DNA of 32,716 nt from an uncultured Bacteroidales bacterium (GCA_902779265.1 CACZAY010000043.1:1-32716); one strand, 5' to 3'. Positions 1,707 to 28,176 are shown, numbered from the stretch's first letter. Translations and numbers: made by a program. The notes: generated by a model not told the origin, from the letters alone.

Positions 1707-1718
1707 AAAAGTAAAGAA

Positions 1719-5142: not shown

Positions 5143-5143
5143 G

Positions 5144-5180: not shown

Positions 5181-5205
5181 TTTGAATTGGTCTATAATAT
5201 TTAGA

Positions 5206-7616: not shown

Positions 7617-7719
7617 TAAATATTAATTCTAATTCTCAACAATTCTGAATGTCAAGAGATTGAATTCTCAAATTCTTGAGATATTCACTAAATTCCGACT
7701 TAAATCATTGATAGATAAT

Positions 7720-7944
7720 ATGAAACAAAAAATCAAAAAACTGCTCGAAGACCAGCTTCCGTTGGTCGATTTGGATTCCGAACGCCTCTACGACGACCTC
7801 GATTCGCTCGGCGTGACCACCATCCTGATGACCTTGTCCGAGGAATTTGACATCGAACTCGACACGCGCGATGCCACGCCGAAGAACCTCCGTAACCTGG
7901 ATGCGCTTGTGGCATTGGTCGAGAAAAAACTGGCCGCAAAATGA
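7720..7944 (+). CDS. Acyl carrier protein
   Basis: A 74-residue acidic helical protein. It carries the phosphopantetheine attachment motif DSLGVT at residues 27-32, with the Ser at 28 as the modified residue, within LYDDLDSLGVTTILMTLSEEFDIEL. It would carry the growing polyene chain. The ATG at 7720 gives normal ACP length; a longer frame from 7660 adds an unlikely N-terminus. The 103-base gap upstream is AT-rich and may contain a secondary promoter, but I see no convincing consensus. Its stop overlaps the ligase start (ATGA at 7941), coupling the carrier to the enzyme that loads it. Confidence 0.85.
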   Translation: MKQKIKKLLEDQLPLVDLDSERLYDDLDSLGVTTILMTLSEEFDIELDTRDATPKNLRNLDALVALVEKKLAAK

Positions 7945-9251: not shown

Positions 9252-9340
9252 TAAAATGTGTGAACATTCGTTAAAGTAAAGGTGCGGGCGTGGAAACCGA
9301 ACGTCTTGCAGCCGTCAAATGTCATTTTAACCTCTTATCT

Positions 9341-11848
9341 ATGAAATTGTCAAAAGCACTTCTTCTGCTGTCGATTGCGCTGCTGCCCGCTGTGGCATTG
9401 GCCGACATGACCGACCAGCAAATCATCAAATACGTCAGCGAGGCATCGGCCAAGGGTACAAGCCAGGCCGAAATGGTGCAGTACCTGCTCAGTCAGGGCG
9501 TCAGTCCGCAGCGTCTGCAACAGCTGAAAGAGAAGTTCAAGTCGTCGCAGTCGGGCAGCAAAGGCACATCGGCCACAACCGACCGCCGTCGCACCAACAA
9601 CGGCGAGGGACGTGCGGCATCGGCCACAACGAGTAAGACCAACGGACGCCTGATGGGCACATCGGCCAAGAGCGGCAAGTTCGACGAGACATCGGCCGAC
9701 TACCTCTCGATGCAGGACGCGCTCACCGGCCTCGTGCCCGACTCGACCAACCAGTCGATGCTCCTGCCGTTGGAGCCGGAAAAGCCGAAAATCTTTGGCC
9801 ATGAAATGTTCAACAACGAGAATATCAGCTTCGAGCCGAACATGAATATCGCTACGCCGGCCAACTACGTGCTCGGTGCGGGCGATGTGGTCTTCATCGA
9901 CATCTACGGCGCGTCGCAGCTCACCATCGAGGGCACAATCTCGCCCGACGGCTGCATCGTCATCGAAGACTTCGGCCCGCTCCAGTTGGGCGGCCTCACC
10001 GTCGAGGAGGCCAACCGCCGTGCGCGCCAGAAGCTGAGCTCCTGCTACGCGGATTCCAAAATCAAGCTGACCGTCGGCCAGACGCGCACCATCCAGGTCA
10101 ATGTGATGGGCGAGGTGCAGGTGCCGGGCACATACACGCTGTCGGCCTTTGCGACCGTCTTCCACGCGCTCTACTACGCGGGCGGCGTGAGCGAAATCGG
10201 TTCGTTGCGCAGTGCCAAACTGTTCAGAGACAATAAGTTGGTGGCCGATGTCGATGTCTATGACTACATCCTGAACGGCCAGCTTTCGGGCGACATCCGC
10301 TTGCAGGACAACGACGTGCTTGTGGTTGCGCCCTACTCCGTCATGGTCAACATCGCGGGCAAGGCCAAGCGTCCGATGCTCTACGAAATGAAGCCCGGCG
10401 AAAGCATCGGCAAGGCCCTCGAATATGCGGGCGGTTTTGCGGCCGATGCCTACCAGAAGTCGATGCGTCTGGTGCGCACCTCGGGCGGAATGCAGGTGTT
10501 CAACATCGCGCCCGACAACATGAACGATTTCACGGTGGCCGATGGCGACTCACTCTTCATTGACTCGGTGCTGATGCGCTACGAGAACATGGTCGAACTG
10601 AAGGGTGCCGTGTTCCGCCCCGGAATGTACCAGCTGAACGAACAGACACGCACCGTGCGCCAGCTTTTGGCCTATGCCGACGGCCTGACCGAGACCGCAT
10701 TCACCTCGCGCGCCGTGCTGCAACGTATGCGTAAAGACCGTCAGATGGAGGTCATCCCGCTCAATCTGGAGTCCATCGTCAGCGGAAAGGCGGCCGATGT
10801 GACCCTTCAGAACGAAGATGTCATTTTCGTGCCCGACACCAAGGAACAGAAAGAAAACCAGACGCTTACCATCCGTGGCGAAGTGTTCGAGCCGGGCATC
10901 TACCAGTTCGCCCACAACACCACCGTCGAAGACCTCGTGCTCCAGGCCGGCGGCTTGAAGGAATCGGCATCGGCCAACAAGGTAAGCATCGCCCGCCGCG
11001 ACAGGGCAGGCCGCATCAAGACCTTCACCATCGACCTCAACCATAACCTTTCGGCCGACGCCAAGTCATCGTTCATCCTTGAACCCAACGACGAGGTGCT
11101 CGTGAAGCGCATCGAGGGCTATGCCGAGAAGGTGACAGTCAGCATCGAGGGCGAGGTGAACTTCCAGGGCGAGTTCTCATTGGCCAATGACCATAGCCGG
11201 ATCAGCGACGTCATCGCCATGGCCGGTGGCCTGACCGAATCGGCTGCCGAGAATGGCGTCTACGTCCTGCGACAGATGGACGACGAGGAGTTGCGCGTGC
11301 GTCGTAACCGACTGGATGCCAACCGTTATTACAATTCACACGTCGCCATTCAGCGGAGTTCTCAGATGCAGGGTGTCACCAAGTTGCCAATCACCGACTC
11401 GTTGATGGTTGTACGCGACACTCGCGAAGATTTGTATAAAGTGGCGGTCGATGTGCGCAAGGTACTCAAGAAACCAGGCTGTGCTGAAGACCTCGTGTTG
11501 CGTGACGGTGACATCATTGTGGTCGAGAAGGTAAAGAACACCGTTACTTTGGGCGGCAATGTGCCCTATGTCGGGACTGTGCCATACGTCAAGGGCAAGA
11601 CGTTGAAATATTATCTGCGCCAAGGCGGTATCCGACCCACACACCGCAACCTGAAAATGGCATATACTATTTCACAGAACGGTCAGGCCATGTCCTACCG
11701 TCGTTGGCGAAAGATTGAGCCGGGTAGCGAAATCTACTTGCGAGAGACCACGTCCGAAATGACCACGGCCCAGAAGACTGCCATCTTCACCTCGGTGGCC
11801 AGCACATTTGCCACAGCCGCCGCCGTCGTTATCGCGGTGTTAAAGTAA
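9341..11848 (+). CDS. Wza-like polysaccharide export protein with multiple SLBB domains
   Basis: This 835-residue protein has a signal peptide (MKLSKALLLLSIALLPAVALA) and no obvious lipobox Cys. A Gln/Ser/Thr-rich low-complexity linker covers about residues 55-125. The Poly_export domain follows (NYVLGAGDVVFIDIYG near 185). Next come six SLBB-like repeats recognised by GEVQVPGTYTL, GKAKRPMLYEM, GAVFRPGMYQL, GEVFEPGIYQF, GEVNFQGEFSL and GGNVPYVGTVPYV, each followed by an AGG- or YADG-type turn. A C-terminal hydrophobic helix could span the outer membrane, as in Wza. Classical Wza has about 380 residues, so this is the long Bacteroidota form. The ATG at 9341 was chosen because the signal peptide begins there. 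It heads the exopolysaccharide locus. Confidence 0.88.
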   Translation: MKLSKALLLLSIALLPAVALADMTDQQIIKYVSEASAKGTSQAEMVQYLLSQGVSPQRLQQLKEKFKSSQSGSKGTSATTDRRRTNNGEGRAASATTSKTNGRLMGTSAKSGKFDETSADYLSMQDALTGLVPDSTNQSMLLPLEPEKPKIFGHEMFNNENISFEPNMNIATPANYVLGAGDVVFIDIYGASQLTIEGTISPDGCIVIEDFGPLQLGGLTVEEANRRARQKLSSCYADSKIKLTVGQTRTIQVNVMGEVQVPGTYTLSAFATVFHALYYAGGVSEIGSLRSAKLFRDNKLVADVDVYDYILNGQLSGDIRLQDNDVLVVAPYSVMVNIAGKAKRPMLYEMKPGESIGKALEYAGGFAADAYQKSMRLVRTSGGMQVFNIAPDNMNDFTVADGDSLFIDSVLMRYENMVELKGAVFRPGMYQLNEQTRTVRQLLAYADGLTETAFTSRAVLQRMRKDRQMEVIPLNLESIVSGKAADVTLQNEDVIFVPDTKEQKENQTLTIRGEVFEPGIYQFAHNTTVEDLVLQAGGLKESASANKVSIARRDRAGRIKTFTIDLNHNLSADAKSSFILEPNDEVLVKRIEGYAEKVTVSIEGEVNFQGEFSLANDHSRISDVIAMAGGLTESAAENGVYVLRQMDDEELRVRRNRLDANRYYNSHVAIQRSSQMQGVTKLPITDSLMVVRDTREDLYKVAVDVRKVLKKPGCAEDLVLRDGDIIVVEKVKNTVTLGGNVPYVGTVPYVKGKTLKYYLRQGGIRPTHRNLKMAYTISQNGQAMSYRRWRKIEPGSEIYLRETTSEMTTAQKTAIFTSVASTFATAAAVVIAVLK
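11178..11189. repeat. Perfect 12-bp palindrome CATTGGCCAATG (intragenic)
   Basis: Copy inside the SLBB export gene, coding SLAND. Confidence 0.85.
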
Positions 11849-14140: not shown

Positions 14141-15666
14141 ATCAGAATACGCGCATCATTGTAAATACATTGGCACAACACCTTCGCTCGCTGCTGAATA
14201 TCAGTATGTCGCTCTATTCGACACGACTGATAACCAGCGCATTGGGAGATATGGACTATGGTGTCTATTCACTGGTGGCAGGCGTGGTTGTCATGTTGGC
14301 TTTTGTGACCAATGCGATGGTCGTCACGACCCAGCGGCAATTGTCTTTTTATCATGGCCAATGTCGCATGGACAAGGTGCGTTGCATGTTTGCCAACAGT
14401 CTGCTGCTACACGTCGTGTTGGGAGCCTTGCTTGCCTTTGTCCTGTACGGATGTGAACCGTTGTTGTTCAACGGATTCCTGAACATCGAGCCCGGACGCA
14501 TCGAGGCTGCCGTGGTGGTCTATCGGCTGGTCATTGTCGCCCTGTTGCTCTCATTCGTTACGGCTCCATATCGGGCCATCTTCATTGCACGCGAAAACAT
14601 CGTTTACCTATCGGTGGTCGATGTGATTGATGGCGTTTTCCGGCTGTTGGCTGCCGTGTGGCTGTTGCATTGTCCGTTTGATCGGCTCATTTCCTACGCC
14701 TGGCTTGTGACCGGCATCACGGCCTTCAACATGACTGCACTGGTAGCGTGGGCTGTCCCGAAATTTGAAGAGAGCCGCGTCCTGCCGCGTCCTGCCCATT
14801 TCAACCGGAAGGCTATGGGGGAGTTGCTTGGCTTTGCCGGATGGACTGTCTATAGTCTGGGCTGCATCATCGGGCGGACACAGGGTGTAAACCTCATCCT
14901 GAACCAATTCTTTGGCACACTCATCAATATGGCCTATGGCATTGTCCAGCAGATTTTCGGCTCGTTACAATTCGTCGCGCAGGCCGTTGTCAATGCCATA
15001 AGTCCGCAGGTCATCAAGGCCGAGGGTATGGGAGACCGCAGGCGTATGCTTGCTATGAGCGAGTCGTTGAGCAAATATGCCTATCTGCTGCTTGCCGTGG
15101 TTGTGATTCCGTTGTTGTTCGAGATGCCGGCTGTCTTGCTGTGGTGGCTGGGCAAGGTGCCCGAATATGCCGTTGTGCTGGCGCGGTTCATCCTCATCGC
15201 GGCGCTGTGTGACCAGTTGACGATTGGTCTGGGTACGGCTAATCAGGCCATTGGCCAAATCCGTAACTATTCGCTCACCATCAACAGTATCAAGCTGCTT
15301 ACCCTGCCGGCTGTCTGGTTCGCCCTGTGGCGCGGAGAGTCTGTCGAGGTGGTGATGTGGATCTATCTGGCTTTCGAGTGCATCTGCGCCATCGGGCGTC
15401 TGCCGTTCCTGAAATATACGGCGGGACTGTCCATTGGCCATTATGCCAAACATGTCTTCGGACGCGTCCTGGTGCCATCGGCCACAATCATTGTCGCTTG
15501 CTGGGCGGTGGTCTTTATGGCCAATTTCCCTTACCGTTTCCTTGTGACGGGCTGCGTTTCGGTGGTGACGGCTGCGGTGACGGTTTGGTTTTTCGCGTTG
15601 GAGGATGCCGAACGGAGATTTGTGGTCCAGCTGTTAAGAAATCGTTTGAAGAATTATGTTGACTGA
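14137..15666 (+). CDS. Oligosaccharide flippase (Wzx-like, MOP superfamily)
   Basis: A 509-residue protein with about 12-14 hydrophobic segments. It starts NTRIIVNTLAQHLRSLLNISMSLYSTRLITSALGDMDYGVYSLV, the N-terminal pattern of polysaccharide transporters of the PST/MATE-like group. It would flip the undecaprenyl-linked repeat unit to the periplasm for polymerisation by the preceding gene product. The ATG at 14137 overlaps the polymerase stop, and the 3' end overlaps the next gene by 11 bases. Confidence 0.86.
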   Translation: MNQNTRIIVNTLAQHLRSLLNISMSLYSTRLITSALGDMDYGVYSLVAGVVVMLAFVTNAMVVTTQRQLSFYHGQCRMDKVRCMFANSLLLHVVLGALLAFVLYGCEPLLFNGFLNIEPGRIEAAVVVYRLVIVALLLSFVTAPYRAIFIARENIVYLSVVDVIDGVFRLLAAVWLLHCPFDRLISYAWLVTGITAFNMTALVAWAVPKFEESRVLPRPAHFNRKAMGELLGFAGWTVYSLGCIIGRTQGVNLILNQFFGTLINMAYGIVQQIFGSLQFVAQAVVNAISPQVIKAEGMGDRRRMLAMSESLSKYAYLLLAVVVIPLLFEMPAVLLWWLGKVPEYAVVLARFILIAALCDQLTIGLGTANQAIGQIRNYSLTINSIKLLTLPAVWFALWRGESVEVVMWIYLAFECICAIGRLPFLKYTAGLSIGHYAKHVFGRVLVPSATIIVACWAVVFMANFPYRFLVTGCVSVVTAAVTVWFFALEDAERRFVVQLLRNRLKNYVD

Positions 15667-16582
15667 AAAGATAAAGGATATTTTTCGGCCTCTTTACAGG
15701 CAGTGGGAACGGGTGGAGATGTCGCTTTTGTGGCACATTTCTCCTCGCCGGTTGGCCGACTATCACTACAGGCGGTGCTACCATCGTGCGTTGAACTGGG
15801 AACATCCGCGTGACATCGACGAGAAAATCAATTGGCTGAAATTTAACACCGATGTGAGCCGATGGGTGACATTGGCCGACAAATATCGTGTGCGGCCCTA
15901 TGTCGAGCAATGTGGATTGGGCGATATGTTGGTGTCTCTTTATGGCCGATGGGACCACGCCGAAGAGATTGACTGGAACGCACTGCCCGAACGGTTTGTC
16001 ATGAAGACCAACAATGGTAGTGGCGATGTCCTGATCTGTCGCGACAAGTCTAAACTTGACACAACGCTTTGGACGCGCAGGTTTCACAATTTGCTCAATC
16101 TGAAATTCGGTCTGGACCGCGCCGAGCCTCATTATGTGCAGATGCCGCCCTGTATCGTGGCCGAGGAGTTGCTCGACTGCACGAAACAGTCTGTCGTCTC
16201 GTCTTCGCTCATCGACTATAAGATCTGGAGTTTCGATGGCCGGCCGGCCTACATCTGGGTCTGTTTCAACCGTACGCACCATTCGTGCGAGGTGATGACC
16301 TATGATCTGGACTGGAACGCACATCCCGAATATTGCGTCGATCGTGACCATTATAAGGTGACGCATACTGCGGTGCCTCGTCCCGTATCGCTCGATCGGA
16401 TGATCGATGCTGCCGCCCGTCTGTCCAAGGGTTTCCCCGTGGTTCGGGTGGACCTCTACGAGGTGGATGGAAAGCCCTATTTCGGGGAAATGACATTCAC
16501 GCCCGCCGCGGGATTCAACTATTTCTATTCGCAGGAGTTCCTGAACCGGCTGGGTGATCTGGCTGAAATCGGAATGAAATAA
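15656..16582 (+). CDS. TupA-like ATP-grasp protein
   Basis: A 308-residue protein matching the TupA-like ATP-grasp family seen in polysaccharide clusters. Blocks include DIDEKINWLKFNTD, VTLADKYRVRPYVEQ, PERFVMKTNNGSGDVLICRDKS, VAEELLDC, DYKIWSFDGRPAYIWVCFNR and FPVVRVDLYEVDGKPYFGEMTFTPAAGF. The last two carry the expected ATP/Mg-binding acidic residues. ATP-grasp enzymes join a carboxylate to an amine or thiol through an acyl phosphate. In a polysaccharide locus the plausible job is linking an amino compound to a sugar acid, but the substrate is not visible. The ATG at 15656 overlaps the flippase end. Confidence 0.83.
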   Translation: MLTEKIKDIFRPLYRQWERVEMSLLWHISPRRLADYHYRRCYHRALNWEHPRDIDEKINWLKFNTDVSRWVTLADKYRVRPYVEQCGLGDMLVSLYGRWDHAEEIDWNALPERFVMKTNNGSGDVLICRDKSKLDTTLWTRRFHNLLNLKFGLDRAEPHYVQMPPCIVAEELLDCTKQSVVSSSLIDYKIWSFDGRPAYIWVCFNRTHHSCEVMTYDLDWNAHPEYCVDRDHYKVTHTAVPRPVSLDRMIDAAARLSKGFPVVRVDLYEVDGKPYFGEMTFTPAAGFNYFYSQEFLNRLGDLAEIGMK

Positions 16583-16585
16583 TGA

Positions 16586-16597
16586 CATTGGCCAATG
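16586..16597. repeat. Perfect palindrome CATTGGCCAATG overlapping a start codon
   Basis: The last three bases (ATG, 16595-16597) are the start codon of the downstream glycosyltransferase; the palindrome fills most of the 12-base gap between genes. Confidence 0.85.
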
Positions 16598-17653
16598 AAA
16601 CAGAACTCGTCGATTGAACCGCCGCGACTCAGCATCGTCATGCCCGTCTTCAACCACGCTGCACTCGTGGTTGAGATGATGGCTTCCATCCGTGCCAACA
16701 CGTGGACGGATTGGGAGCTGATTGCCGTTGATGACGGATCGGACGTGGCCGATTTTCAGCTGGTTGCAGAATTTACCGCGGGAGACGAGCGTATCCGGTA
16801 TGTACGTCGTGACCGAGAACCGAAGGGGGCTCAGACGTGCCGCAACATCGGTTTTGCGATGTCACGTGGCGAATATGTCGCCTTTTTCGACTCGGACGAT
16901 TGGGTGACGCCCGTCTGTTTGGAGCAGCGTATTCGGGTCATTGGCCAACATCCCGAACTCGATTTCATGGTCTTTCCGGCAGGTGTCTATCGCGATGGTG
17001 GCATCCTCGTCGAGCCGGGTTGCAGCATGTTCGGATACCCGATTTACGGTGACGACATTGCGGCCTTCTGCAACCGGACATTGCCGTTCGTTGTGTGGAA
17101 CAATCTGTATCGGCGCAGTTCGCTTTTGGCCAATGGCATTCGTTGGGACGAGCGTCTGCTCTCGTTGCAGGATGCGGCGTTCAACCTCGCAGTGCTGACC
17201 AAAGGGTTGAAATATGCCTATGCGACCGATGTCGCTGCCGACTACGCCTACCGCCTTTCCACGGGCGGCTCGGTCTCGAAGCAGATTGGCGGTGCGGCGC
17301 ATTTCTGCAGCAACGTTTTGGCCACCGAGATCGCCTACAGCCTTGTGCAACAGAGGTTTGCACACCATTATGACCTTGCACTCTATCGTGGTGCGCTTTA
17401 CGTCTATGTCAAGGTGGCGCGCGAGGGCTACGAAGCCGATTTTGTCGCTGCGATGGCTCGGGTCATTGCCCGCTATTCCCCTCTTTATGGCCGCTGGTTC
17501 CGCCTCCAGATGTGGCTCACGCGCCGGCTGATGAGCCTGTTGCCCTACAGGGTGGCACGGCAGCTGCCCTTGGCGTTTGACCTGCTGCGCCGATGGCTTG
17601 TGGAGGAACTGTGGATCCCACGTCGGCAGAAAAAATGGATGAAGTCATTATGA
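16595..17653 (+). CDS. Family 2 glycosyltransferase
   Basis: A 352-residue GT-A fold enzyme. It has RLSIVMPVFNHAALV near residues 11-25, WELIAVDDGSD, GAQTCRNIGFAMSRGEYVAFFDSDDWVTP (metal/nucleotide-binding SDD) at about 75-108, and a conserved acceptor-side block WDERLLSLQDAAFNLAVL. It would transfer a sugar to the lipid-linked repeat unit in the cytoplasm. The start codon lies within a CATTGGCCAATG palindrome, leaving only 12 bases to the upstream stop. The stop overlaps the next glycosyltransferase (ATGA). Confidence 0.85.
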   Translation: MKQNSSIEPPRLSIVMPVFNHAALVVEMMASIRANTWTDWELIAVDDGSDVADFQLVAEFTAGDERIRYVRRDREPKGAQTCRNIGFAMSRGEYVAFFDSDDWVTPVCLEQRIRVIGQHPELDFMVFPAGVYRDGGILVEPGCSMFGYPIYGDDIAAFCNRTLPFVVWNNLYRRSSLLANGIRWDERLLSLQDAAFNLAVLTKGLKYAYATDVAADYAYRLSTGGSVSKQIGGAAHFCSNVLATEIAYSLVQQRFAHHYDLALYRGALYVYVKVAREGYEADFVAAMARVIARYSPLYGRWFRLQMWLTRRLMSLLPYRVARQLPLAFDLLRRWLVEELWIPRRQKKWMKSL

Positions 17654-18546
17654 GTCAGAAAGTTGTATCTATCATCATCGTGACCTACAACTCGGAGCGC
17701 GATATTTACGATTGTGTTCGGTCGATTGTGGCCAATGCCGATGTTCCGCGCGAGTGTCTCGAACTCGTCGTGGTCGATAACTGCAGCCGTGAGCCCGAAG
17801 CCATGTTCGCCCAGCTCAGGCAGCTGTGGGGTGAGGATGCGGTCCTGATTCGTAACACGAAGAATGGCGGTTACGGCCAGGGAAACAACGTCGGCCTGCG
17901 AGCCGCGTCAGCGCCATTGGCCCTCATCATGAATCCCGACGTGCGGCTTGTAATGCCTGTGTTCCAGTGTGCGGCTGCGCGGTTTGAGGCCAATGGAGAT
18001 TTGGCCGTCATGGGACTGAAGCAGATGACGTCGGCCAATAGGGTCAGCACGAACTCCATCTGTTGCGACTGGCTGATGAGCGGCTATCTGCGGCCTGTGA
18101 TAAGCGCATTGGCCAATAGGTTCGACTGGTTCTGGCCGAGGCGGATGTATGTGCAGGGGTCATGCTTCTTCGTGCGACGGTCGATGTTCGAGAGCGCCGG
18201 AATGTTCGACGAGGAGCACTTCATGTATGGCGAGGAGGAGGATATCCATTACCGCCTGCTGGCTCGTTACGGCGCGTCATGCTATGCCTACGACAAGGGG
18301 CTGCGCTACATCCACCAGACGGAAGACCGTGCCCCCTCATTGGCCTACGAAAAGCGAATCGTTGAGGCCAATGTCTCGCTTTATCGCAAGAAGGGAGTCG
18401 CATCGGCCATTATCCTGAACCACTTTCTGCAGAACCTGCGGTTTGTGATGATGCGCGATTGCTGTTTCGGCACAAGTCGGGAGCAACGCGCTGTGAATGA
18501 ACAGTTAAAGACCTATCTTAAGACTCGGTTGAAAGAAGAGAAATGA
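17650..18546 (+). CDS. Family 2 glycosyltransferase (rhamnosyltransferase-like)
   Basis: A 298-residue enzyme. It opens SIIIVTYNSERDIYDCVRSI, then LVVVDNCSREPEA, RNTKNGGYGQGNNVGLRAA and LIMNPDVRL (the DxD-equivalent NPDV). A later block is YVQGSCFFVRRSMFESAGMFDEEHFMYGEEEDI, with the catalytic acidic cluster typical of the WbbL/rhamnosyltransferase branch. Start at the ATG at 17650, which overlaps the previous stop; an upstream ATG at 17635 would add five residues. The 3' end overlaps the following gene (ATGA). Confidence 0.86.
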   Translation: MSQKVVSIIIVTYNSERDIYDCVRSIVANADVPRECLELVVVDNCSREPEAMFAQLRQLWGEDAVLIRNTKNGGYGQGNNVGLRAASAPLALIMNPDVRLVMPVFQCAAARFEANGDLAVMGLKQMTSANRVSTNSICCDWLMSGYLRPVISALANRFDWFWPRRMYVQGSCFFVRRSMFESAGMFDEEHFMYGEEEDIHYRLLARYGASCYAYDKGLRYIHQTEDRAPSLAYEKRIVEANVSLYRKKGVASAIILNHFLQNLRFVMMRDCCFGTSREQRAVNEQLKTYLKTRLKEEK

Positions 18547-19679
18547 ATCGAACAGTCTTCTATATAGATCCGCAATCGTACAACAATCTGTCAGTCTATG
18601 ACCACTCGCTGCTGAAGGGCATCAAGGACTGGCAGATACACTATTTCTGCAATCGGAAGTACGATTTCAAGCCGCTTGACGGGGTGCATGTCTATCCGAT
18701 CTTCCGCTATAGTGACTACCGCAAGTCGTGGCGTAAGGTGCTCAGCTATTCGGGCAGCCTGTTCCGCCTTATGGCGAGCGCCTTGCGGTATCGGCCGTCG
18801 GTTGTTCATGTCCAATGGATTCACTTCTGGCCGCTGGATTATCTGTTCGTCATATTCCTGCACCTGTTGGGCGTCAAGGTCGTCTTTACGGCCCATAACC
18901 TGTTGCCTCACGAACGGCGGCGTGGCGACGGACACCTGTTCCGCTGGTATTATGAGAAGGTCGATGCTGTCATTGTCCACACGCAGCGCACGCGATTGGA
19001 AATGATTGACAATCTGCATATTGAAAGAAAAAAAATCCACGTGCTGCATCATGGAATACTCAACTCCGAGGTCGATGAATCGGCCGTCCGTCAGCGAATG
19101 GCAGAACTTCGAGACCAGCTTCATCTGCCCGATGGAGCCGTCATCTTCTCTTGCCTTGGAATGCAGAACAAGTACAAGGGCATCAATCTTGTGACGCGCG
19201 TCTGGAGCCGCTCCAAGGTGTTTTGTGACAAGAATTGTTACCTGCTTATTGTCGGCAAGAACGTCGAGTCGATTGACTATTCCGAAGTCGTTTCATTGGC
19301 CAATGTCCATATTCTGAACGAAAAGGTGAGCAATCTGGATTTCGAGGCCTATCTGCGGCTCTCGTCGGTTGTCCTGTTGCCCTACACACGTATTTCGCAG
19401 AGTGGCCTGCTCTTCTCGGCCATCCAGGCAGGCGTGCCGGTGCTGGTGAGCGACGTGGGCGGCTTGACCGAGCCGTTGGCTGTGGCCGATGTGGGCTGGA
19501 ACATTGGCCGACCCGGTGAAGAGCCATTGGCCAAGGTCATGGAACAGCTTGCCGCCCATCCCGACGAAGTGTCTCGTGTGAGGGCCAATGCCGAGGCCTT
19601 CCAGCGTGTTCGCGCAGCTTATGACTGGGCTGAAATATCGGCCGAAACCAACTTGTTGTATCAGAGTTTGTTACAGTAA
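18543..19679 (+). CDS. Family 4 (GT-B) glycosyltransferase
   Basis: A 378-residue GT-B enzyme. The N-terminal half includes VVHVQWIHFWPLDYL and VVFTAHNLLPHERR, with the acceptor-side His. The linker has VIVHTQRTRLEMI and VLHHGIL. The C-terminal nucleotide-sugar half has FSCLGMQNKYKGINL, YLRLSSVVLLPYTRISQSGLLFSAIQAGVPVLVSDVGGLTE and a closing GRPGEEPLAKVM stretch. It overlaps the upstream gene by four bases, and a 14-base gap separates it from the aldolase gene. Confidence 0.85.
   Translation: MNRTVFYIDPQSYNNLSVYDHSLLKGIKDWQIHYFCNRKYDFKPLDGVHVYPIFRYSDYRKSWRKVLSYSGSLFRLMASALRYRPSVVHVQWIHFWPLDYLFVIFLHLLGVKVVFTAHNLLPHERRRGDGHLFRWYYEKVDAVIVHTQRTRLEMIDNLHIERKKIHVLHHGILNSEVDESAVRQRMAELRDQLHLPDGAVIFSCLGMQNKYKGINLVTRVWSRSKVFCDKNCYLLIVGKNVESIDYSEVVSLANVHILNEKVSNLDFEAYLRLSSVVLLPYTRISQSGLLFSAIQAGVPVLVSDVGGLTEPLAVADVGWNIGRPGEEPLAKVMEQLAAHPDEVSRVRANAEAFQRVRAAYDWAEISAETNLLYQSLLQ
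19294..19305. repeat. Perfect 12-bp palindrome CATTGGCCAATG (intragenic)
   Basis: Copy inside the GT-B glycosyltransferase gene, coding SLANV. Confidence 0.85.
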
Positions 19680-19693
19680 AAATTCGATAGTGT

Positions 19694-20479
19694 ATGGCAC
19701 TAAAGTTAATGTATATTACCAACCGTCCGGCGGTGGCAAGAATTGCGGAGCAGGCGGGCGTCGATTGGATTTTTCTCGAGCAGAATCATCACACGGTGGC
19801 CGATGTCGCCAATATCCGCAGCGCAGTTACGCGGTCGGAGGTGCTTGTGCGCGTGAATCCGATACATGAGGCATTGGCCGACTATCCATCTTCGGCCGAG
19901 GAGATTGATGCCGTCATCAAGGCTGGAGCAGACATTGTCATGCTGCCCTATTTCAAGACGATCGATGAGGTGCGTCGCTTCATAGCTCTGGTGGGCGGTC
20001 GGGCCAAGACGTGCCTGCTGCTCGAAACGGTCGAGGCTGCCGCGCTTTTGGATGAAATCCTTGCGGTGAAGGGCATAGATTTTATTCACATCGGCCTGAA
20101 TGACATGCATTTGCAGCTCGGCATGAAGTTCATGTTCGAGTTGTTGGCCAATGGCACTGTTGAACGATTGTCCGAAAAGATCAAGGCCAATGGCATTCCG
20201 TTCGGCTTCGGCGGCATCGCGCAGCTGAACACGGGAATGTTGCCCGGCGCGGCAGTGTTGAAGGAGCACGTCCGTCTCGGGTCAAGCATGGTGATTTTGA
20301 GCCGCAGTTTCTGCAATTCGGAGGCCATCAGCGACCTTGACGAGGTGCGCAGGATTTTTAGTGAGGGTGTGTCGGCCATTCGCGCATTGGAGCGGGAGGC
20401 ACAGCGGATGCCATCGGCCGAACTGGAAAAGAACCGCGAGGCAGTGGCATTGGCCGTAAACAAAATCGTGAAAAAGTGA
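19694..20479 (+). CDS. HpcH/HpaI (citrate-lyase-type) aldolase family protein
   Basis: A 261-residue TIM-barrel protein. It has AGVDWIFLEQNHHT near residues 17-30, KAGADIVMLPYF near 76-87, CLLLETVEAAALLDEI (the metal-binding Glu region) near 107-122 and IDFIHIGLNDMHLQLG (Asp region) near 128-143. This is the layout of class II pyruvate aldolases such as HpaI. It would make or cleave a 4-hydroxy-2-oxo acid from pyruvate and an aldehyde. Its location between glycosyltransferases and directly before a PLP decarboxylase points to synthesis of a polysaccharide decoration or unusual sugar acid. The arginine usually seen at the active site was not identified with certainty. Confidence 0.78.
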   Translation: MALKLMYITNRPAVARIAEQAGVDWIFLEQNHHTVADVANIRSAVTRSEVLVRVNPIHEALADYPSSAEEIDAVIKAGADIVMLPYFKTIDEVRRFIALVGGRAKTCLLLETVEAAALLDEILAVKGIDFIHIGLNDMHLQLGMKFMFELLANGTVERLSEKIKANGIPFGFGGIAQLNTGMLPGAAVLKEHVRLGSSMVILSRSFCNSEAISDLDEVRRIFSEGVSAIRALEREAQRMPSAELEKNREAVALAVNKIVKK

Positions 20480-20485
20480 GAGAAA

Positions 20486-21697
20486 ATGGAAATTAACAGC
20501 AAGAAGATAAAAGAGTTGCAGGCCGACTACGGCGAGGCATTCTACCTGTTGGACAGTGCGCAGTTCCGTCAGAATTTCACGGAGCTGAAGGCGGCGTTCA
20601 ATGCCGTTTATCCGCACTCGAACATTGCCTATTCGTACAAGACGAACTACACACCGAAGCTGTGCCGCATCGTCAACGAGATGGGCGGCTATGCCGAGGT
20701 CGTGAGCGAAATGGAGCTTGAAATCGCGCGTCGGGTGGGTTGTGCGGCCAATCGGATTATCTGGAACGGCCCCATCAAGAATGTCTCCGTCATGGAGCAA
20801 TTCCTGCTCGATGGCGGCACGGTGAACATCGACAACCGTGAGGAACTTGATGTCGTCAGGGGCATTGGCCAACGACATCCGGATGCCATGCTTCACGTGG
20901 GCCTGCGCTGCAATTACGATGTGGCCGATGGCGTTGTCTCGCGATTCGGATTCGATGTCGATGGTGCAGATTTTCGCGAGGCGTTCGATTTTGTAACATC
21001 GGCCAACAACTTGAAACTGATTAACTTGCAATGCCATTTTGCCAAGCGTCAGATTGAATATTGGCCAGCCCGTGCACAGGGAATGGTTGACCTGCTCAAA
21101 CGGCTCGATTTCATCCCCGAGCGCATCGACATCGGCGGCGGACTGTATGGGAAGATGGCCGATGACCTTCGTGCGCAGTTCTGTGGCGAGATTCCCGACT
21201 ACGCAAGTTACGCCAAGGCCGCAGCGACTGTCTTTGCCGACTATTTCAAGGCCAAGGGCGTGCAGCCGGAACTGCTCATCGAGCCGGGCAGCGCGGTGGT
21301 GGGCGACTGCATGAAATTTTTGGCTACGGTCAAGACTATCAAGCAGGTACGCGGAAAATGGTTCGCTACCGTGTTGGGCAGTCAGAAGAACATCAGCATG
21401 ACGGGCATCAATCCGCCCATCGAGGTTGTTGCGATGGGAGGGGAGCGCCGTCACTACGCGGATTTGGACTTCGTGGGCTTCACCTGTATCGAGGGCGACG
21501 TGCTGCACCGCAACTACACGGGCGACTTGGCATTGGCCGATGTCATCGTGATAAGCAACTGCGGCAGCTATTCGTTGGTCATGAAACCGCCGTTCATCTT
21601 GCCCAATTTCCCGGTGCTTGACATCAGTGAGGGGAAGACGGAGGTCATCAAGCGAGGCGAGACGTTCGACGACTTGTTCCATACGTTCAACTTTTAA
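20486..21697 (+). CDS. Fold-type III PLP-dependent decarboxylase (DAP/ornithine decarboxylase-like)
   Basis: A 403-residue enzyme of the LysA/ODC group 4 family. The PLP lysine is Lys 52 in IAYSYKTNYTP. Others are the His of LQCHFAKRQ near 192-200, the phosphate-binding IDIGGGLYG near 212-220 and the dimer-contributed Cys-Asp motif CIEGDVL near 333. The substrate-side EPGR of diaminopimelate decarboxylase reads EPGSAVVGD here, so the substrate is probably not meso-DAP. The gene starts six bases after the aldolase stop and is followed by the priming transferase. Not a housekeeping lysA by context; it likely decarboxylates an amino acid made for the polysaccharide. Confidence 0.82.
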   Translation: MEINSKKIKELQADYGEAFYLLDSAQFRQNFTELKAAFNAVYPHSNIAYSYKTNYTPKLCRIVNEMGGYAEVVSEMELEIARRVGCAANRIIWNGPIKNVSVMEQFLLDGGTVNIDNREELDVVRGIGQRHPDAMLHVGLRCNYDVADGVVSRFGFDVDGADFREAFDFVTSANNLKLINLQCHFAKRQIEYWPARAQGMVDLLKRLDFIPERIDIGGGLYGKMADDLRAQFCGEIPDYASYAKAAATVFADYFKAKGVQPELLIEPGSAVVGDCMKFLATVKTIKQVRGKWFATVLGSQKNISMTGINPPIEVVAMGGERRHYADLDFVGFTCIEGDVLHRNYTGDLALADVIVISNCGSYSLVMKPPFILPNFPVLDISEGKTEVIKRGETFDDLFHTFNF

Positions 21698-21710
21698 TCC
21701 ATAACTGATT

Positions 21711-22397
21711 GTGTATAAGTTGCATCTATTCATCAAACGGGCTTTTGACCTGATTGCTTGCCTGATAGCTGTGGTGCTGCTCATTCCCGTGTGGATTGTG
21801 ATAGCCATCGCCATCAAGGTCGATTCGCGCGGGCCGGTGTTCTTCAAGCAGGGACGTCGCACGAAGGACGGCCGTATTTTCCAGATGCTGAAGTTCCGCT
21901 CGATGGTGGACAATGCCGAACGGCAGGGTACAGGGTTGTTCTCCTACGACAATGACCCGCGCGTGACCCGCGTAGGAGCCTTCCTGCGACGCACCAGTCT
22001 GGACGAGTTGCCACAGTTCTTCAACGTGATTGCGGGCGACATCTCGATTGTCGGTCCGAGGCCGTGCGTATCGTATGAATTGGGCGACTTCGACACGTTG
22101 AACAAGAAATTCCGCAAGCGTTTTCAGGTGAAGGGCGGCATTACGGGATTGGCACAGTGCAAGGGCAGAAACGAGAATTCGTGGGCAGAAAAAGCCACGC
22201 TCGATGGTGAATATGTCGATTTGTTCCGCTCCGAGGGCATTTGGATTGACATAAAAATCCTGTGGTGGTCATTGGCCAAGGTCTTCCAGAGCGCGAACAT
22301 CAACGAGACGCAGCGCGAGGGCATGACAGCCGAGGAATCGGCCGAAATGAGTGACGAAGAGGTCAAGCGGCTTGCGCATCTGCCCGACGAGGATTAA
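21711..22397 (+). CDS. Undecaprenyl-phosphate sugar phosphotransferase (priming transferase)
   Basis: A 228-residue monotopic phosphoglycosyl transferase of the WcaJ/PglC type. A single N-terminal re-entrant helix (residues about 8-30) is followed by [25 protein letters not shown]. Next come [26 protein letters not shown], containing the catalytic Asp-Glu pair, and the C-terminal [12 protein letters not shown]. It loads the first sugar-1-phosphate on undecaprenyl phosphate. The start appears to be the GTG at 21711, because no ATG precedes the conserved [10 protein letters not shown]. Its acidic C-terminal tail is longer than in PglC. Confidence 0.88.
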
Positions 22398-22453
22398 CTT
22401 TTGGGCAGATGGAGTTCATTGGCCATGAAAATGAAAAAAAAATTGATTGAGAT

Positions 22454-23389
22454 ATGGCAAAAACAGATGTTGCAAATCGTTTTATCTGGTTCAAGGGACA
22501 GATAATGAACGTGAACGATGCCAAGGTGAACGTGCTTTCGCCCACATCGCAGTTCGGACTGAACGTGTTCGAGGGCATTCCGTGCTATTGGAACGACACG
22601 CAGAAACAGCTTTATGCCTTCCGGTTGGACGACCATTATGACCGACTGCTCCGTTCGGCCAGACTGATTCAGTTGGATTGCCGGTTCACCAAAGACGAGC
22701 TGCGTAAGGCATTGATTGATACGGTCGTGGCCAATGAATATGACGAGAATCTCTCGGTGCGGCAGACGCTTTTCGTCGATGGTTTCGGCTCGTGGGGTTC
22801 TGAAGGTCCGGTCGAGATGTTCGTCGCGCCCATTCCGCGTGGACGCACCAGTGCCGAATACAACAAAAAGGGGCTGCACTGCTGTGTCACCTCGTGGCGC
22901 AGGATCAGCGACGAGAACCTCAGCCCACGCATCAAGTGCGGCGCGAACTACATCAACAGCCGCGTCGGCCAACGTGAAGCCTTGCGCAACGGCTACGACA
23001 CCTGCATCTTCCTCAACGAGGTGGGCAAGGTGGCCGAGGGGCCGGGCAGTTGTTTCTTCATGATCAAGGGCAATAGGCTGATTACGCCGCGTCTCACCGA
23101 CAGCGTTCTGGAGAGCATCACGCGCGACACCATCATCCAATTGGCCACCACGGAACTCGGCCTTGAATTCGAGGAGCGCACCATCGACCGTACCGAACTT
23201 TATTTGGCCGATGAGGCTTTCCTGTGTGGCTCGGCAATGGAAGTCACGCCCGTTTACAGCATCGACCGCTATGCCATCGGCCAAGGTGAAACCGGTGCGT
23301 TGACCAAGGAAATCCATCTGAAATATTTGGAGGCCGCACGCGGTGAACTCGCGAACAGAAAGAATTGGCTGACACCGATTTATAAGTGA
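22454..23389 (+). CDS. Class IV aminotransferase (branched-chain aminotransferase-like)
   Basis: A 311-residue fold-type IV PLP enzyme. It has FGLNVFEGIPCY near residues 34-45, the PLP lysine at 161 in RIKCGANYINSRVGQREA, EGPGSCFFMIKGNRLITPRLTDSVLESITRD (phosphate and cofactor contacts) and CGSAMEVTPV near the C-terminus. Family members aminate 2-oxo acids or, as D-amino acid transaminases and aminodeoxychorismate lyases, act on related compounds. Embedded in the polysaccharide locus near an aldolase and a decarboxylase, it is better read as a dedicated biosynthetic enzyme than as IlvE. The ATG at 22454 follows a gap that holds one CATTGGCC copy and an A-run. Confidence 0.84.
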   Translation: MAKTDVANRFIWFKGQIMNVNDAKVNVLSPTSQFGLNVFEGIPCYWNDTQKQLYAFRLDDHYDRLLRSARLIQLDCRFTKDELRKALIDTVVANEYDENLSVRQTLFVDGFGSWGSEGPVEMFVAPIPRGRTSAEYNKKGLHCCVTSWRRISDENLSPRIKCGANYINSRVGQREALRNGYDTCIFLNEVGKVAEGPGSCFFMIKGNRLITPRLTDSVLESITRDTIIQLATTELGLEFEERTIDRTELYLADEAFLCGSAMEVTPVYSIDRYAIGQGETGALTKEIHLKYLEAARGELANRKNWLTPIYK

Positions 23390-23395
23390 TTGACG

Positions 23396-24166
23396 ATGGA
23401 AAAACAACGCGTTGAAGGACTCGTTTCGGTCATCGTTCCCGTCTATAATGCCGAAAGGGTCATCGAGCGGACAATCCGTTCGGTGCAGGCGCAGAGCTAT
23501 CAGAACTGGGAACTCATCATGGTCGATGATTGTGCGTCCGACAATTCCGCCTCATTGATTGGCCGGATGGCATTGGCCGATGCCCGAATCAAATACTTCA
23601 AGTTGGAGCAGAACAGCGGTGCCGCCGTCGCCCGCAATCGCGGTTTGGCCGAGGCTCATGGCCGATATGTCGCCTTCCTCGATGCCGATGACTATTGGCT
23701 GGCCGACAAGTTGCAGCGGGAACTGGACTTGATGCGCGGGCGTGATTGTGCGTTCGTCTATTCGGCCACGCAGATGATTGACGAGGACGACAAGCCGTTG
23801 TGTGCTTACACGCCCGTGCCTGCGTGGACGGACTACCGCCACTTGCTGAAACGCACGGTGATTGCGACCTCGACCGTCTTGCTCGACATGGAGAAGGTGG
23901 GCGACTTCTCGATGCCGTTGCGCCGTTCGGGGCAGGACTATGCCACGTGGTTGATGCTGTTGCGGCGCATTGACCGCGCATACGGAATCGACGAACCGTT
24001 GGTCTGGTATCGCATTTCGCGCAATTCGTTGTCGTCCAATAAGTTGAAGAGCGTCCGGCAGGTGTATGAAATCCAGACCCGCAATGAAGGGCTGAATCCG
24101 GTCTATGCTGCGTGGAATACGCTATTCTTCTGTCTGTACGCTTTTAAGAAGCATTTTTTGAAGTAA
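23396..24166 (+). CDS. Family 2 glycosyltransferase
   Basis: A 256-residue GT-A enzyme. It has VSVIVPVYNAERVIERTIRSVQ near residues 10-31, WELIMVDDCASDNS, NSGAAVARNRGLAEAHGRYVAFLDADDYWL (DADD metal site) and the WbbN/KfoC-like block SGQDYATWLMLLRR with the catalytic Asp. I chose the ATG at 23396, six bases past the aminotransferase stop; a TTG at 23390 is possible. It is compact (no C-terminal membrane helix), as in capsule side-chain transferases of Bacteroidota. Confidence 0.85.
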   Translation: MEKQRVEGLVSVIVPVYNAERVIERTIRSVQAQSYQNWELIMVDDCASDNSASLIGRMALADARIKYFKLEQNSGAAVARNRGLAEAHGRYVAFLDADDYWLADKLQRELDLMRGRDCAFVYSATQMIDEDDKPLCAYTPVPAWTDYRHLLKRTVIATSTVLLDMEKVGDFSMPLRRSGQDYATWLMLLRRIDRAYGIDEPLVWYRISRNSLSSNKLKSVRQVYEIQTRNEGLNPVYAAWNTLFFCLYAFKKHFLK

Positions 24167-24225
24167 AATAATTTTCGGCTATTGTCCACTGGTATTTCAG
24201 CCGCGACTCGCTGCCTTATTGGTGC

Positions 24226-26052
24226 GTGTTGGCGATTGATTGCCTGAGCCTGATTTTCTTCTACTACATCGGCTATTTCTGTGTGCTGGGCTCTCAGGGC
24301 GTGGCGGAATATTTTTGGGTCAAGTTGTCTCTGATTTGTTTCTGTCTAATTCCCTACCTGATCTTCTTCCGCATCTTCCACACCTACGCCAACGTGGTGC
24401 GCTATTCGTCGTTCATCGATCTGCGTAATGTGTTGATGGCCAATGTGCTTGGCTCGCTCGTTGTGATTGCCATCCGTGCCGTTTTCTTCGAGTACAATGA
24501 CGAGATTTTTCCAGGAATGCGCATCGTGCTGATAGCCTTCGCATTGGCCACAATGGTGATGTGCAGTTGGCGCATCATTTGCCGCACGGTGTTCGATGTA
24601 GTCAATACCGAGGCCGATGCCAAGCGCATCTTCATCTATGGTACGCGCGAGGGTGGAGTCTCATTGGCCAAAAGCTTCCGCAGCCAGAAACCTGTGAAAT
24701 ATAACGTCTTGGGTTTCATTGCACCGCAATGCAACCTTGAGTCGCGCTATCTGGCAGGACTGCCGGTCTATGCCGATGACGTGCGGCTAATCAGTGTGCT
24801 GATGCGCGAGGAGATTCAAGCCGTCATGGTTGCACCGTTGCAGGTCGATGACTTCCGAAACAACGAACGGCTTGTGAGCGAGCTGACCGATGCGGGAATC
24901 CAAATCTACATGATGCCCGAGGTGCAGAAGTGGGACGGCAAGAGTCCGCTGCGGCAGGAAATGCTGAAGGAGGTGGAGATTGAAGACCTCCTGCCACGCG
25001 AGGAAATAGAGGTCAACATGACGGCCATCGGCCAGATGCTGTACGGCAAACGTATCCTCATCACGGGTGCGGCCGGTTCCATCGGCAGCGAAATGGTGCG
25101 GCAGATTGCGTCGTTCGCGCCATCGGAAATGATCCTTATCGACCAGGCAGAGACGCCGATGCACGACATCCGTCTGCTCATGGCGCGTTCTTTTGCCGAT
25201 GTCCCGTCGCAGACCATCGTCACCAGCATCACCAACCAGCGGCGCATGGAGCAGATTTTCGCGGAACATCGGCCGGAATATGTCTTCCATGCTGCGGCCT
25301 ACAAGCATGTCCCGATGATGGAGGACAACCCGTCGGAGGCCGTCCAGAACAACATCGAGGGCACAAAGGTCATCGCCGACCTCGCTGTGAAATACGGCAC
25401 GCGCAAGTTCGTCATGATTTCGACCGACAAGGCTGTCAACCCGACCAACGTGATGGGTTGCTCGAAACGCATCTGCGAGATGTACTGTCAGTCGCTCAAC
25501 AATGTTCAGACGACGTGCCAGTTCGTCACTACGCGATTCGGCAATGTGTTGGGGTCCAATGGCTCGGTCATCCCGATTTTCCGCGAACAGATCCGGCGCG
25601 GTGGTCCCGTCACGGTGACGCATCCCGACATCATCCGCTTCTTCATGCTCATTCCCGAGGCGTGCAAGCTCGTGCTCGAAGCGGGCACATTCGGCAAGGG
25701 CGGCGAGATTTTCGTGTTCGACATGGGCAAACCTGTCAAGATTGCGGACTTGGCCAAGAGGATGATCGCCCTATCCGGTGCGACCGATGTCGAAATCCAA
25801 TATACAGGTCTGCGCGACGGCGAAAAGCTCTTCGAGGAGGTTTTAAGCACGGCCGAGGTCACCAAGCCGACACCGCACGCCAAGATTTTCGTGGCTCAGG
25901 TGCGCGAATATCCTTTTGTCGATGTGAGCCGTCAGGTTGATGAACTCTACCAACTGAGTTTCACGGCATCGGACATGGACATCGTTCGCAAGATGAAGGA
26001 GATAGTGCCCGAATTCAAGTCGCAACACTCGAAATATCAAGCACTTGATTGA
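24226..26052 (+). CDS. CapD/WbpM/PglF-like UDP-sugar 4,6-dehydratase, membrane-bound
   Basis: A protein of about 608 residues. It has four N-terminal membrane helices, a linker Rossmann-like domain (KRIFIYGTREGGVSLAKSF) and a C-terminal SDR domain with ILITGAAGSIGSEM near residues 276-290. The catalytic block MISTDKAVNPTNVMGCSKR lies near 395-413, with Met in place of the usual SDR Tyr as is normal in this family. It makes a UDP-4-keto-6-deoxy-HexNAc precursor. The GTG at 24226 is the first standard start, but the same frame upstream reads VHWYFSRDSLPYWC, which looks like genuine N-terminal sequence. An ATT at 24181 is the only near-cognate start between it and the stop at 24169. Last gene of the locus, followed by a terminator. 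Confidence 0.88.
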   Translation: MLAIDCLSLIFFYYIGYFCVLGSQGVAEYFWVKLSLICFCLIPYLIFFRIFHTYANVVRYSSFIDLRNVLMANVLGSLVVIAIRAVFFEYNDEIFPGMRIVLIAFALATMVMCSWRIICRTVFDVVNTEADAKRIFIYGTREGGVSLAKSFRSQKPVKYNVLGFIAPQCNLESRYLAGLPVYADDVRLISVLMREEIQAVMVAPLQVDDFRNNERLVSELTDAGIQIYMMPEVQKWDGKSPLRQEMLKEVEIEDLLPREEIEVNMTAIGQMLYGKRILITGAAGSIGSEMVRQIASFAPSEMILIDQAETPMHDIRLLMARSFADVPSQTIVTSITNQRRMEQIFAEHRPEYVFHAAAYKHVPMMEDNPSEAVQNNIEGTKVIADLAVKYGTRKFVMISTDKAVNPTNVMGCSKRICEMYCQSLNNVQTTCQFVTTRFGNVLGSNGSVIPIFREQIRRGGPVTVTHPDIIRFFMLIPEACKLVLEAGTFGKGGEIFVFDMGKPVKIADLAKRMIALSGATDVEIQYTGLRDGEKLFEEVLSTAEVTKPTPHAKIFVAQVREYPFVDVSRQVDELYQLSFTASDMDIVRKMKEIVPEFKSQHSKYQALD

Positions 26053-26060
26053 ATACAAAG

Positions 26061-26090
26061 AAAGCGGCCTCATCGGTCGCTTTTTTTCTT
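26061..26090 (+). terminator. Rho-independent terminator after the exopolysaccharide locus
   Basis: AAAGCGGCC (26061-26069) pairs with GGTCGCTTT (26075-26083) through one G-U wobble around a 5-base loop. The descending arm runs into seven or more T residues. Confidence 0.85.
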
Positions 26091-26589: not shown

Positions 26590-28176
26590 TTACAGTTTGT
26601 ATTGGACCGTAATTTGCAACCCTTTGTTGTCGCCCATTAGGTCTCCCTTGTCCATGCCATAGGCCGCACGCACGATGAAGTTGCGCAGGAAGCTGTTTTC
26701 GGGCATCTGATAGGTCATTTCCACAAGGACGCTCGTGTTTTCGACAGGGCGGGCGATGGGCTTGTGGTAACTGCCGAAGGACTTCTGCCACGTGTAGAGC
26801 ATACGATAGTCCAGCCCCTTGGTGATATGTCCGCGCACGCCGCCGTGCAGTGCGATGAACCGGTTGTGCTCGAAGCGGATATATCCATCCTTGTTATATT
26901 GCGGTGAGCGGTACAGCGGGTTGCCGATGGCCTGTCCCCAATGCTGCCAGCCGGGAAGCGTCGAGTGGTTGTAATAGTCGTCGATGCCGCCCAGGTGGTC
27001 GCTGTTGCCGCTATTTCGGTCGTGATAGACCGGGCCGCTCTGGTATTTCGTGTTCATGAACTCCAAGGTCATGGCCTCCAGCCACGGGAAGTTCTTCAGT
27101 CTGATGTCCAATCCCCATTGGCCATCCACAGGATTATAGGCGAAGAATTTCAGCTCCTTCTTTTCGCGCCATTGGTCACCCTCACCATAACCGTTATAGT
27201 CGAGCAGGAACATCGACGAGTGGTCCTCGAAAAAGTGGTCATAATAAAGGCCAATGGTGTAATTCTCGCCCTCCCAGTTCAGTCGTGCCAGCCAACTGCC
27301 CACCTGATTGCCCTCGGCATTCTGGAATTCGGTTTCGTTCGTGTCACCGCCGCCAGGGACGAAGGCGTTCCAATAGCTTCTGATGTCACTTTTCAGTTTC
27401 ATGCCGCTGCTACCACGGAAATGGTTTTCGTCCGTACCATGATAGTTGTAGAGCGAACCTCCGAATTCGGCACCCATTTCAAGGCCGATGGTCAGCGTCA
27501 GCGGAAACTTCTCCTCTTTGCCGATGCGCAGGTAGCCCGCTTTCTCGTGGTAGCGTGTCCAGCGGTTGTACGAATTGCCGCTCGTATAGACGAATGCCTC
27601 CTCCCAGTCTGCGTCACTCATGATGCCGTAGGCGATGTGACCCTTGAAGGCCAACCAGTCGTTTGTGCGTGGTATGGACCACCAGTCGGCCATCGCCAAT
27701 CGGCCTTGCGGCACGGGGCGCGCGTTGATGCCGAATGTCTGCGCACCGCTCGACAGCAGATTGTCGCGTAGTTCGGCCGGATATTGTTTTGCGCCAATGG
27801 TAATCGTCCCCTTGTGCCAGCGCACCTCGGCGTAGAGCTGCTGCATGATGATGCTGCTGCGGTACTCCGACTCGTTGTAGCCCCGGTGCCAGTAGCGCAG
27901 GGGGAGGACCAGGTCGCTGCCGATGGTATATGAAACGCCCCATGGCTTGTATTCATCATCGTAGTACATCATGCCGCGGGCGTATGCATTGGCGTTCGAG
28001 AGGCAGCTCAGGCCATATTTGTTGGCATTGAGCCACAGCGGTGTCTGGCCCTCACAGCCCGATGCCTGGAACTCCATCGTTCCAGTGACCTTGTCGTTCT
28101 TCGCCGACATTGGCCAAAAACTACATATTGATGATATGGTAAGCGCTAATAAGGTTAGCAGCAGATGTCTCTTCAT
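26590..28176 (-). CDS. Wzi-family capsule assembly outer-membrane protein
   Basis: A 528-residue protein with a signal peptide (about residues 1-25) and long runs of alternating hydrophobic/aromatic residues typical of an outer-membrane beta-barrel. It carries the Wzi_2-type start MEFQASGCEGQTPLWLNANKYG and an aromatic C-terminal strand ending VQYKL. Wzi anchors or organises capsular polysaccharide at the cell surface, which fits the neighbouring export locus. It is transcribed against that locus, with its own promoter at 28211-28241. A CATTGGCC copy lies right after the signal peptide region (28110). Confidence 0.83.
   Translation of the reverse strand: MKRHLLLTLLALTISSICSFWPMSAKNDKVTGTMEFQASGCEGQTPLWLNANKYGLSCLSNANAYARGMMYYDDEYKPWGVSYTIGSDLVLPLRYWHRGYNESEYRSSIIMQQLYAEVRWHKGTITIGAKQYPAELRDNLLSSGAQTFGINARPVPQGRLAMADWWSIPRTNDWLAFKGHIAYGIMSDADWEEAFVYTSGNSYNRWTRYHEKAGYLRIGKEEKFPLTLTIGLEMGAEFGGSLYNYHGTDENHFRGSSGMKLKSDIRSYWNAFVPGGGDTNETEFQNAEGNQVGSWLARLNWEGENYTIGLYYDHFFEDHSSMFLLDYNGYGEGDQWREKKELKFFAYNPVDGQWGLDIRLKNFPWLEAMTLEFMNTKYQSGPVYHDRNSGNSDHLGGIDDYYNHSTLPGWQHWGQAIGNPLYRSPQYNKDGYIRFEHNRFIALHGGVRGHITKGLDYRMLYTWQKSFGSYHKPIARPVENTSVLVEMTYQMPENSFLRNFIVRAAYGMDKGDLMGDNKGLQITVQYKL

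Follow-up and report, generated by a model that had tools for sequence, protein, structure and literature searches.

The closest described case known to us for the genes reported here is the capsule locus of Campylobacter jejuni HS:2, in which Cj1435-Cj1438 give the ethanolamine or serinol amide of glucuronic acid (GlcA) (PMC12409886). We compared this route with a polysaccharide locus of an uncultured Bacteroidales bacterium, carried on contig C43 (GCA_902779265.1, CACZAY010000043.1) of a 2.8-Mb genome that is 83% complete; the whole contig of 32,716 nucleotides is called the window below. The locus contains an HpcH/HpaI-type aldolase (ALDO), a fold-III pyridoxal phosphate (PLP) decarboxylase (DECARB), a PglC-type initiating sugar-phosphate transferase (PglC) and a class IV aminotransferase (AT4). 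On balance we lean towards the reading that these four genes are a transferable module, which would use pyruvate and an aldehyde to produce a small amine and with it modify the starting unit of a surface polysaccharide. It probably serves to decorate the polysaccharide with an unusual pyruvate-derived amino acid or amino alcohol.

As in C. jejuni HS:2, where dedicated capsule-locus enzymes including a decarboxylase yield a small amino alcohol in the form of its phosphate (PMC12409886), the module has dedicated enzymes, among them a decarboxylase, in a polysaccharide locus, and would make a comparable product. However, C. jejuni derives its amines from serine phosphate and a dihydroxyacetone compound, with no aldolase involved, and attaches them to GlcA within the chain by means of the ATP-dependent ligase Cj1438C (PMC12409886), whereas the module starts from an aldolase, has alternative branches, is tied to an initiating transferase and has no conserved ligase. 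The eight loci with ALDO, PglC and AT4 described below share no ATP-dependent amide ligase of the kind that accompanies the amine-making genes in C. jejuni. For the first two reactions there is a counterpart in vitro, as Escherichia coli branched-chain aminotransferase (BCAT) aminates 4-hydroxy-2-oxo acids produced by a pyruvate aldolase (PMC8482765), which agrees with the class IV transamination that the initial annotation of this DNA had suggested. The order of pyruvate aldol addition and glutamate-dependent BCAT transamination is the one we propose for the module, but that cascade is an engineered one-pot synthesis with another aldolase (HBPA), without a decarboxylase and without a polysaccharide (PMC8482765).

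No published description of the module was found in the open-access full-text literature, and the function of this ALDO family in capsule-type loci appears to be so far undescribed. In Vibrio cholerae O1, perosamine is acylated by 3-deoxy-tetronate, so that a surface sugar bears a small hydroxy acid whose skeleton resembles that of a 4-hydroxy-2-oxo acid. This case can be compared with the loci that pair ALDO with a D-2-hydroxyacid dehydrogenase (2HADH); to our knowledge, that acylation uses different enzymes and no HpaI-type aldolase. An HpaI-fold enzyme and a fold-III PLP decarboxylase also occur together in a siderophore cluster, as SbnG and SbnH. These proteins and the decarboxylase FslC differ from the module in having no aminotransferase of the AT4 type and in belonging to a siderophore rather than a polysaccharide context.

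Distribution of the module and exchange of its finishing enzymes

ALDO neighbours the initiating transferase in many capsule-type loci of gut Clostridia and Bacteroidales. A restricted pattern search of genome contigs gave 274 ALDO relatives, of which the best 80, mostly from Clostridia and Bacteroidales, made up with four others a set of 84 loci in which partners were counted with tblastn. The distance between PglC and ALDO is at most 150 bp in 66 of these loci and at most 1.5 kb in 74. The most frequent other partner is 2HADH (PF02826; 65 loci, usually right after ALDO); AT4 was found in 6 loci, DECARB in 6, both in 5, and Ldh_2 (PF02615) within 1.5 kb of ALDO in 3. Altogether, eight loci, distributed over Bacteroidota and Clostridia and thus over two phyla, contain ALDO, PglC and AT4 together, and six of these also have DECARB. 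Gene order varies, being ALDO-DECARB-PglC-AT4 in the window, G002, L028, G397 and G819, the reverse (AT4-PglC-DECARB-ALDO) in G719, and ALDO-PglC-AT4 without DECARB in L068 and G1120.

The AT4 profile was also run blind, on genomes drawn irrespective of ALDO. Matches were obtained in 2 of 393 genomes from the order of the window genome (G000 and G397), in 3 of 381 Clostridia (G793, which was the centre, and the new G819 and G1120) and in 1 of 98 genomes from the class of G719 (G719 itself). Both neighbourhoods found blind, those of G819 and G1120, contain ALDO and PglC, and cassette-type AT4 was seen only beside ALDO and PglC in the genomes searched. With eight loci, two phyla, differing gene orders and two blind finds, the association of ALDO, PglC, AT4 and DECARB exceeds chance.

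The initial annotation had proposed a four-enzyme decoration pathway consisting of the aldolase, the decarboxylase, the class IV aminotransferase and a TupA-like ATP-grasp protein, and had named co-occurrence in other capsule loci as the check, with a scattered distribution speaking against it. Profile matches placed all four families in the window, and the recurrence just described favours the idea. The aldolase, transaminase and decarboxylase do co-occur as a dedicated set in distant capsule-type loci, but TupA is not in the unit and PglC is the constant fourth partner. The initial annotation had not mentioned the link with PglC, the dehydrogenase branch found as an alternative in other loci, or a deletion in the window ALDO.

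AT4 and 2HADH are mutually exclusive beside ALDO, 2HADH being present in 0 of 6 AT4 loci and in 65 of 78 others (Fisher p = 6.7e-5, for loci that are not independent). Five changes are needed to account for the AT4 label on a tree of 86 ALDOs, and a single clade of AT4-linked ALDOs was rejected in a 34-row subset (log-likelihood 91 lower, p-AU 2.9e-4), likewise without the long branch L111. Therefore, transaminase and dehydrogenase have replaced one another next to one and the same aldolase. The AT4-linked PglCs, in contrast, form one clade apart from the PglCs of 2HADH loci, with support of 89 in 81 rows and 100 in 34 rows. Since the PglC clade follows AT4 while ALDO does not, PglC may transfer the unit that carries the group; that the initiating transferase tracks the finishing branch is what may be expected if its substrate bears the finished group.

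Other arrangements were seen around ALDO. Loci with ALDO and 2HADH (L049 11747-14274, L107 11749-13368, L104 10814-11683) often add an asparagine-synthase-like protein, a sugar-transfer ATP-grasp protein (PF14397) or an acyltransferase (PF01757), which are candidate enzymes for coupling the hydroxy acid to a sugar. In L080, L102 and L103, a DegT aminotransferase lies within 100 bp of ALDO and PglC is divergent, a possible further branch.

The nearest relative of the window cassette is in G002, a genome of the same genus, with about 95-97% DNA identity over the block that runs from the ALDO start through the PglF-like gene (window 19703-26086) and different genes upstream. Comparison of the two copies indicated purifying selection (w of 0.13 for ALDO, 0.20 for DECARB, 0.05 for PglC and 0.03 for AT4). 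Relative to G002, 48 bp are missing in frame from the window ALDO near 19779, as seen in the DNA alignment and as a break in the blastn match. The lost residues include D28, E30, I32, G33, K34, R37, Q38 and D42 (L029 numbering), all eight of which are invariant in 33 family members. The deletion is either recent damage to the local gene or a misassembly, and because of it the window copy of the module may be inactive.

Enzyme families and proposed reactions

The window ALDO matched the HpcH/HpaI profile PF03328 with 42.7 bits (5e-11) and its full-length relative in L028 with 51.2 bits, against a cut-off of 25. The predicted structure of the L029 ALDO (pLDDT 94.5) has the phosphoenolpyruvate (PEP)/pyruvate TIM-barrel fold. 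R68, E126 and D152 are invariant in 33 of 33 family rows, and we take them, by sequence alignment, to be probably the pyruvate-binding arginine and the two acidic metal ligands of HpaI. Three weak matches (G354, G327 and G253) aligned with one another apart from the family, resembled nicotinate-nucleotide pyrophosphorylase-type proteins and were dropped. Ldh_2, 2HADH and class IV transaminases all use 2-oxo acids, and therefore ALDO probably makes a 2-oxo acid, which is the simplest reading of the partner set. The aldolase step of the initial annotation gains indirect support in this way, the usual partners being 2-oxo-acid enzymes that replace one another.

AT4 (PF01063, 3e-46) belongs by profile to the branched-chain (IlvE type I) clade, with 271.6 bits against the TIGR01122 cut-off of 245.55 and 288.9 bits against 279 for NF005146. 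It is not the only BCAT of the cell, a second one being encoded on contig C56 of the window genome. DECARB scored 77.1 bits (1.7e-21) with PF02784, above the cut-off of 23.4, and five DECARBs keep the fold-III signature, namely the PLP lysine (YSYKTN), a histidine, GGG, the glutamate facing the pyridine nitrogen (EPG) and the cysteine of the CxExD site; these roles are assigned by analogy with ornithine decarboxylase and LysA. An assignment as LysA was rejected, as DECARB reached 146.5 bits against the TIGR01048 cut-off of 297.9, and a separate LysA is present in every DECARB genome tested (410 bits in the window genome). The LysA motif EPGR (compared in L121) is EPGS or EPGT in DECARB, so the substrate is probably other than diaminopimelate. 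No close DECARB relatives were found in viral contigs.

In the proposed pathway, ALDO would add pyruvate, or a related compound, to an aldehyde to form a 4-hydroxy-2-oxo acid, and AT4 would transfer an amino group from glutamate to give a 4-hydroxy-2-amino acid. DECARB, where present, would remove the carboxylate to leave an amino alcohol, while in other loci 2HADH or Ldh_2 would reduce the oxo acid instead. The group would be attached by an enzyme that differs between loci, probably onto the sugar placed on the lipid carrier by the dedicated PglC. The order ALDO, AT4, DECARB fits the data; we infer that AT4 precedes DECARB, as we do the chemistry of all steps and the place of attachment. Decarboxylation as the last step, already suggested in the initial annotation, fits the two loci with ALDO, PglC and AT4 whose genomes have no DECARB of this type, and none was found genome-wide in the available sequence of G793 and G1120.

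That AT4 and DECARB are unrelated passengers, a spare BCAT and a spare LysA in a gene-rich locus, is largely refuted and very improbable. AT4 does pass the general BCAT cut-offs, but the separate LysA and the second BCAT mark DECARB and AT4 as dedicated, extra, locus-bound copies, and the set is kept in eight loci of two phyla in varying order, with blind confirmation. We also consider it quite unlikely that TupA belongs to the pathway and forms an amide with a sugar acid, as first proposed. The TupA-like protein (133 bits and 1.7e-38 with PF14305, cut-off 25; predicted ligase) belongs to the same locus, 3.1 kb upstream, and Cj1438C sets a precedent by joining ethanolamine or serinol to GlcA in C. 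jejuni (PMC12409886). However, none was found in the G002 stretch examined beside the near-identical cassette, where the upstream genes are replaced, or beside L028, G397, G719 and G819. Among the 84 ALDO loci, 6 contain TupA, in no case as close as 1.5 kb to ALDO, and the window has no uronic acid gene; TupA was rejected as a pathway member on conservation.

Two other explanations are less easily set aside, although we regard each as the less probable account. ALDO might not be a strict aldolase but use the pyruvate or PEP enolate in another condensation, such as a coenzyme A (CoA)-dependent Claisen reaction or enolpyruvyl chemistry on a sugar, with AT4 or 2HADH acting on the 2-oxo product. 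Its score with the HpaI equivalog TIGR02311 is 28.6 bits against a cut-off of 368.8, the YfaU-type equivalog models are likewise far from reached, and the invariant segment DxExIGKxxRQ is missing from the HpaI alignments obtained. Structure comparison did not separate HpaI from pyruvate kinase, as Foldseek matched the L029 model to HpaI (4b5w, 7.6e-10), YfaU (2vws, 1.3e-9) and also pyruvate kinase, and VIA-align placed pyruvate kinases at the top (Z 21.1) with no HpaI among the 50 matches listed. Nevertheless, the PF03328 cut-off is passed, and no nearby CoA ligase or thioesterase is conserved. DECARB, for its part, might take as its substrate an amino acid that is already linked to another moiety, with the module making two pieces that are later condensed. 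SbnH and FslC of siderophore pathways decarboxylate such pre-joined amino acids, and DECARB matches the FslC structure PDB 7kh2 and scored 84.1 bits with the FslC (N-citrylornithine decarboxylase) model NF041039, far from its cut-off of 500. In addition, a DECARB relative (39% identical) in L089 is accompanied by 2HADH and a PylC/Ter-type ATP-grasp protein but not by AT4. Against this, AT4 is present in the other six DECARB loci and no condensing enzyme is conserved. The L089 genes form a single run (6205-11727) of PglC, an LmbE-like deacetylase (by inspection), the DECARB relative, the ATP-grasp protein, ALDO and 2HADH.

Several points weigh against the module as we propose it. The window ALDO is without residues that are invariant in its family, and the DECARB relative of L089 without AT4 means that DECARB need not follow AT4. 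PglC and AT4 are adjacent in 8 of 8 loci, so that their common history could be no more than an effect of linkage. Furthermore, the 84 ALDO loci are the nearest 80 matches plus a few and are not independent, and no ligase or transferase common to the eight loci was found.

The polysaccharide locus and its significance

The module lies in a Wzx/Wzy-type polysaccharide locus on the plus strand, recognized by an initiating transferase, Wzz, an SLBB/Poly_export protein and several glycosyltransferases; its polymerase and flippase were assigned by inspection of open reading frames (ORFs) only. The flippase-like gene is followed by TupA, three glycosyltransferases, ALDO, DECARB, PglC, AT4, a glycosyltransferase and a PglF/CapD-like dehydratase.

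Features of the polysaccharide locus, with positions in the window
Feature	Position	Strand	Remarks
SLBB/Poly_export protein	9290	+	upstream part of locus
Wzz	11855	+	upstream part of locus
Polymerase- and flippase-like proteins	12947 and 14137	+	ORF inspection
TupA-like ATP-grasp	15656..16582	+	PF14305; outside conserved module
ALDO, HpcH/HpaI-type (PEP/pyruvate TIM barrel) aldolase, distinct capsule-locus family	19694..20479	+	PF03328; copy 16 residues short
48-bp in-frame deletion site relative to G002 (approximate)	19779..19780	+	DNA alignment, blastn break, family alignment
DECARB, fold-III PLP decarboxylase, LysA-like but not LysA	20486..21697	+	PF02784
PglC-type initiating sugar-phosphate transferase	21711..22397	+	PF02397
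AT4, class IV aminotransferase, branched-chain (IlvE type I) clade	22454..23389	+	PF01063, TIGR01122
TuaG-like family 2 glycosyltransferase	23390..24166	+	usual gene after AT4 in Bacteroidota loci
PglF/CapD-like nucleotide-sugar 4,6-dehydratase	24226..26052	+	PF02719

The TuaG-like glycosyltransferase also follows AT4 in G002, L028 and L020 but not in L111, and the PglF/CapD-like dehydratase is kept with the module in G002 and is not in every locus. Directly before the capsule locus, window 1-9251 carries what looks like an aryl polyene/flexirubin-type gene cluster, with a ketoacyl synthase, acyltransferases, an MMPL exporter and an AMP-ligase, that is truncated by the contig start. A distant Wzi-like capsule assembly protein lies at 26590-28176 on the minus strand, with a PF14052 score below the cut-off. 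In G002, a run of X, possibly unresolved bases, was seen within the Wzx-like ORF (L018 15214-16557, minus strand).

As a more tentative extension, which we hold to be somewhat doubtful, these loci might represent a widespread undescribed class of polysaccharide initiation, in which the first lipid-carrier unit carries, or is partly built from, a pyruvate aldol product with exchangeable finishes (reduced, aminated, or aminated and decarboxylated) and a matched initiating transferase. If the module works as proposed, it would provide a genome-readable rule for predicting non-sugar decorations on gut bacterial surfaces, and a transaminase and a dehydrogenase that take each other's place next to a common aldolase would clearly illustrate how surface chemistry evolves in modules. 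These few genes, shared by gut bacteria of two phyla and located next to an enzyme that initiates a polysaccharide, would then represent a new means of varying the bacterial surface.

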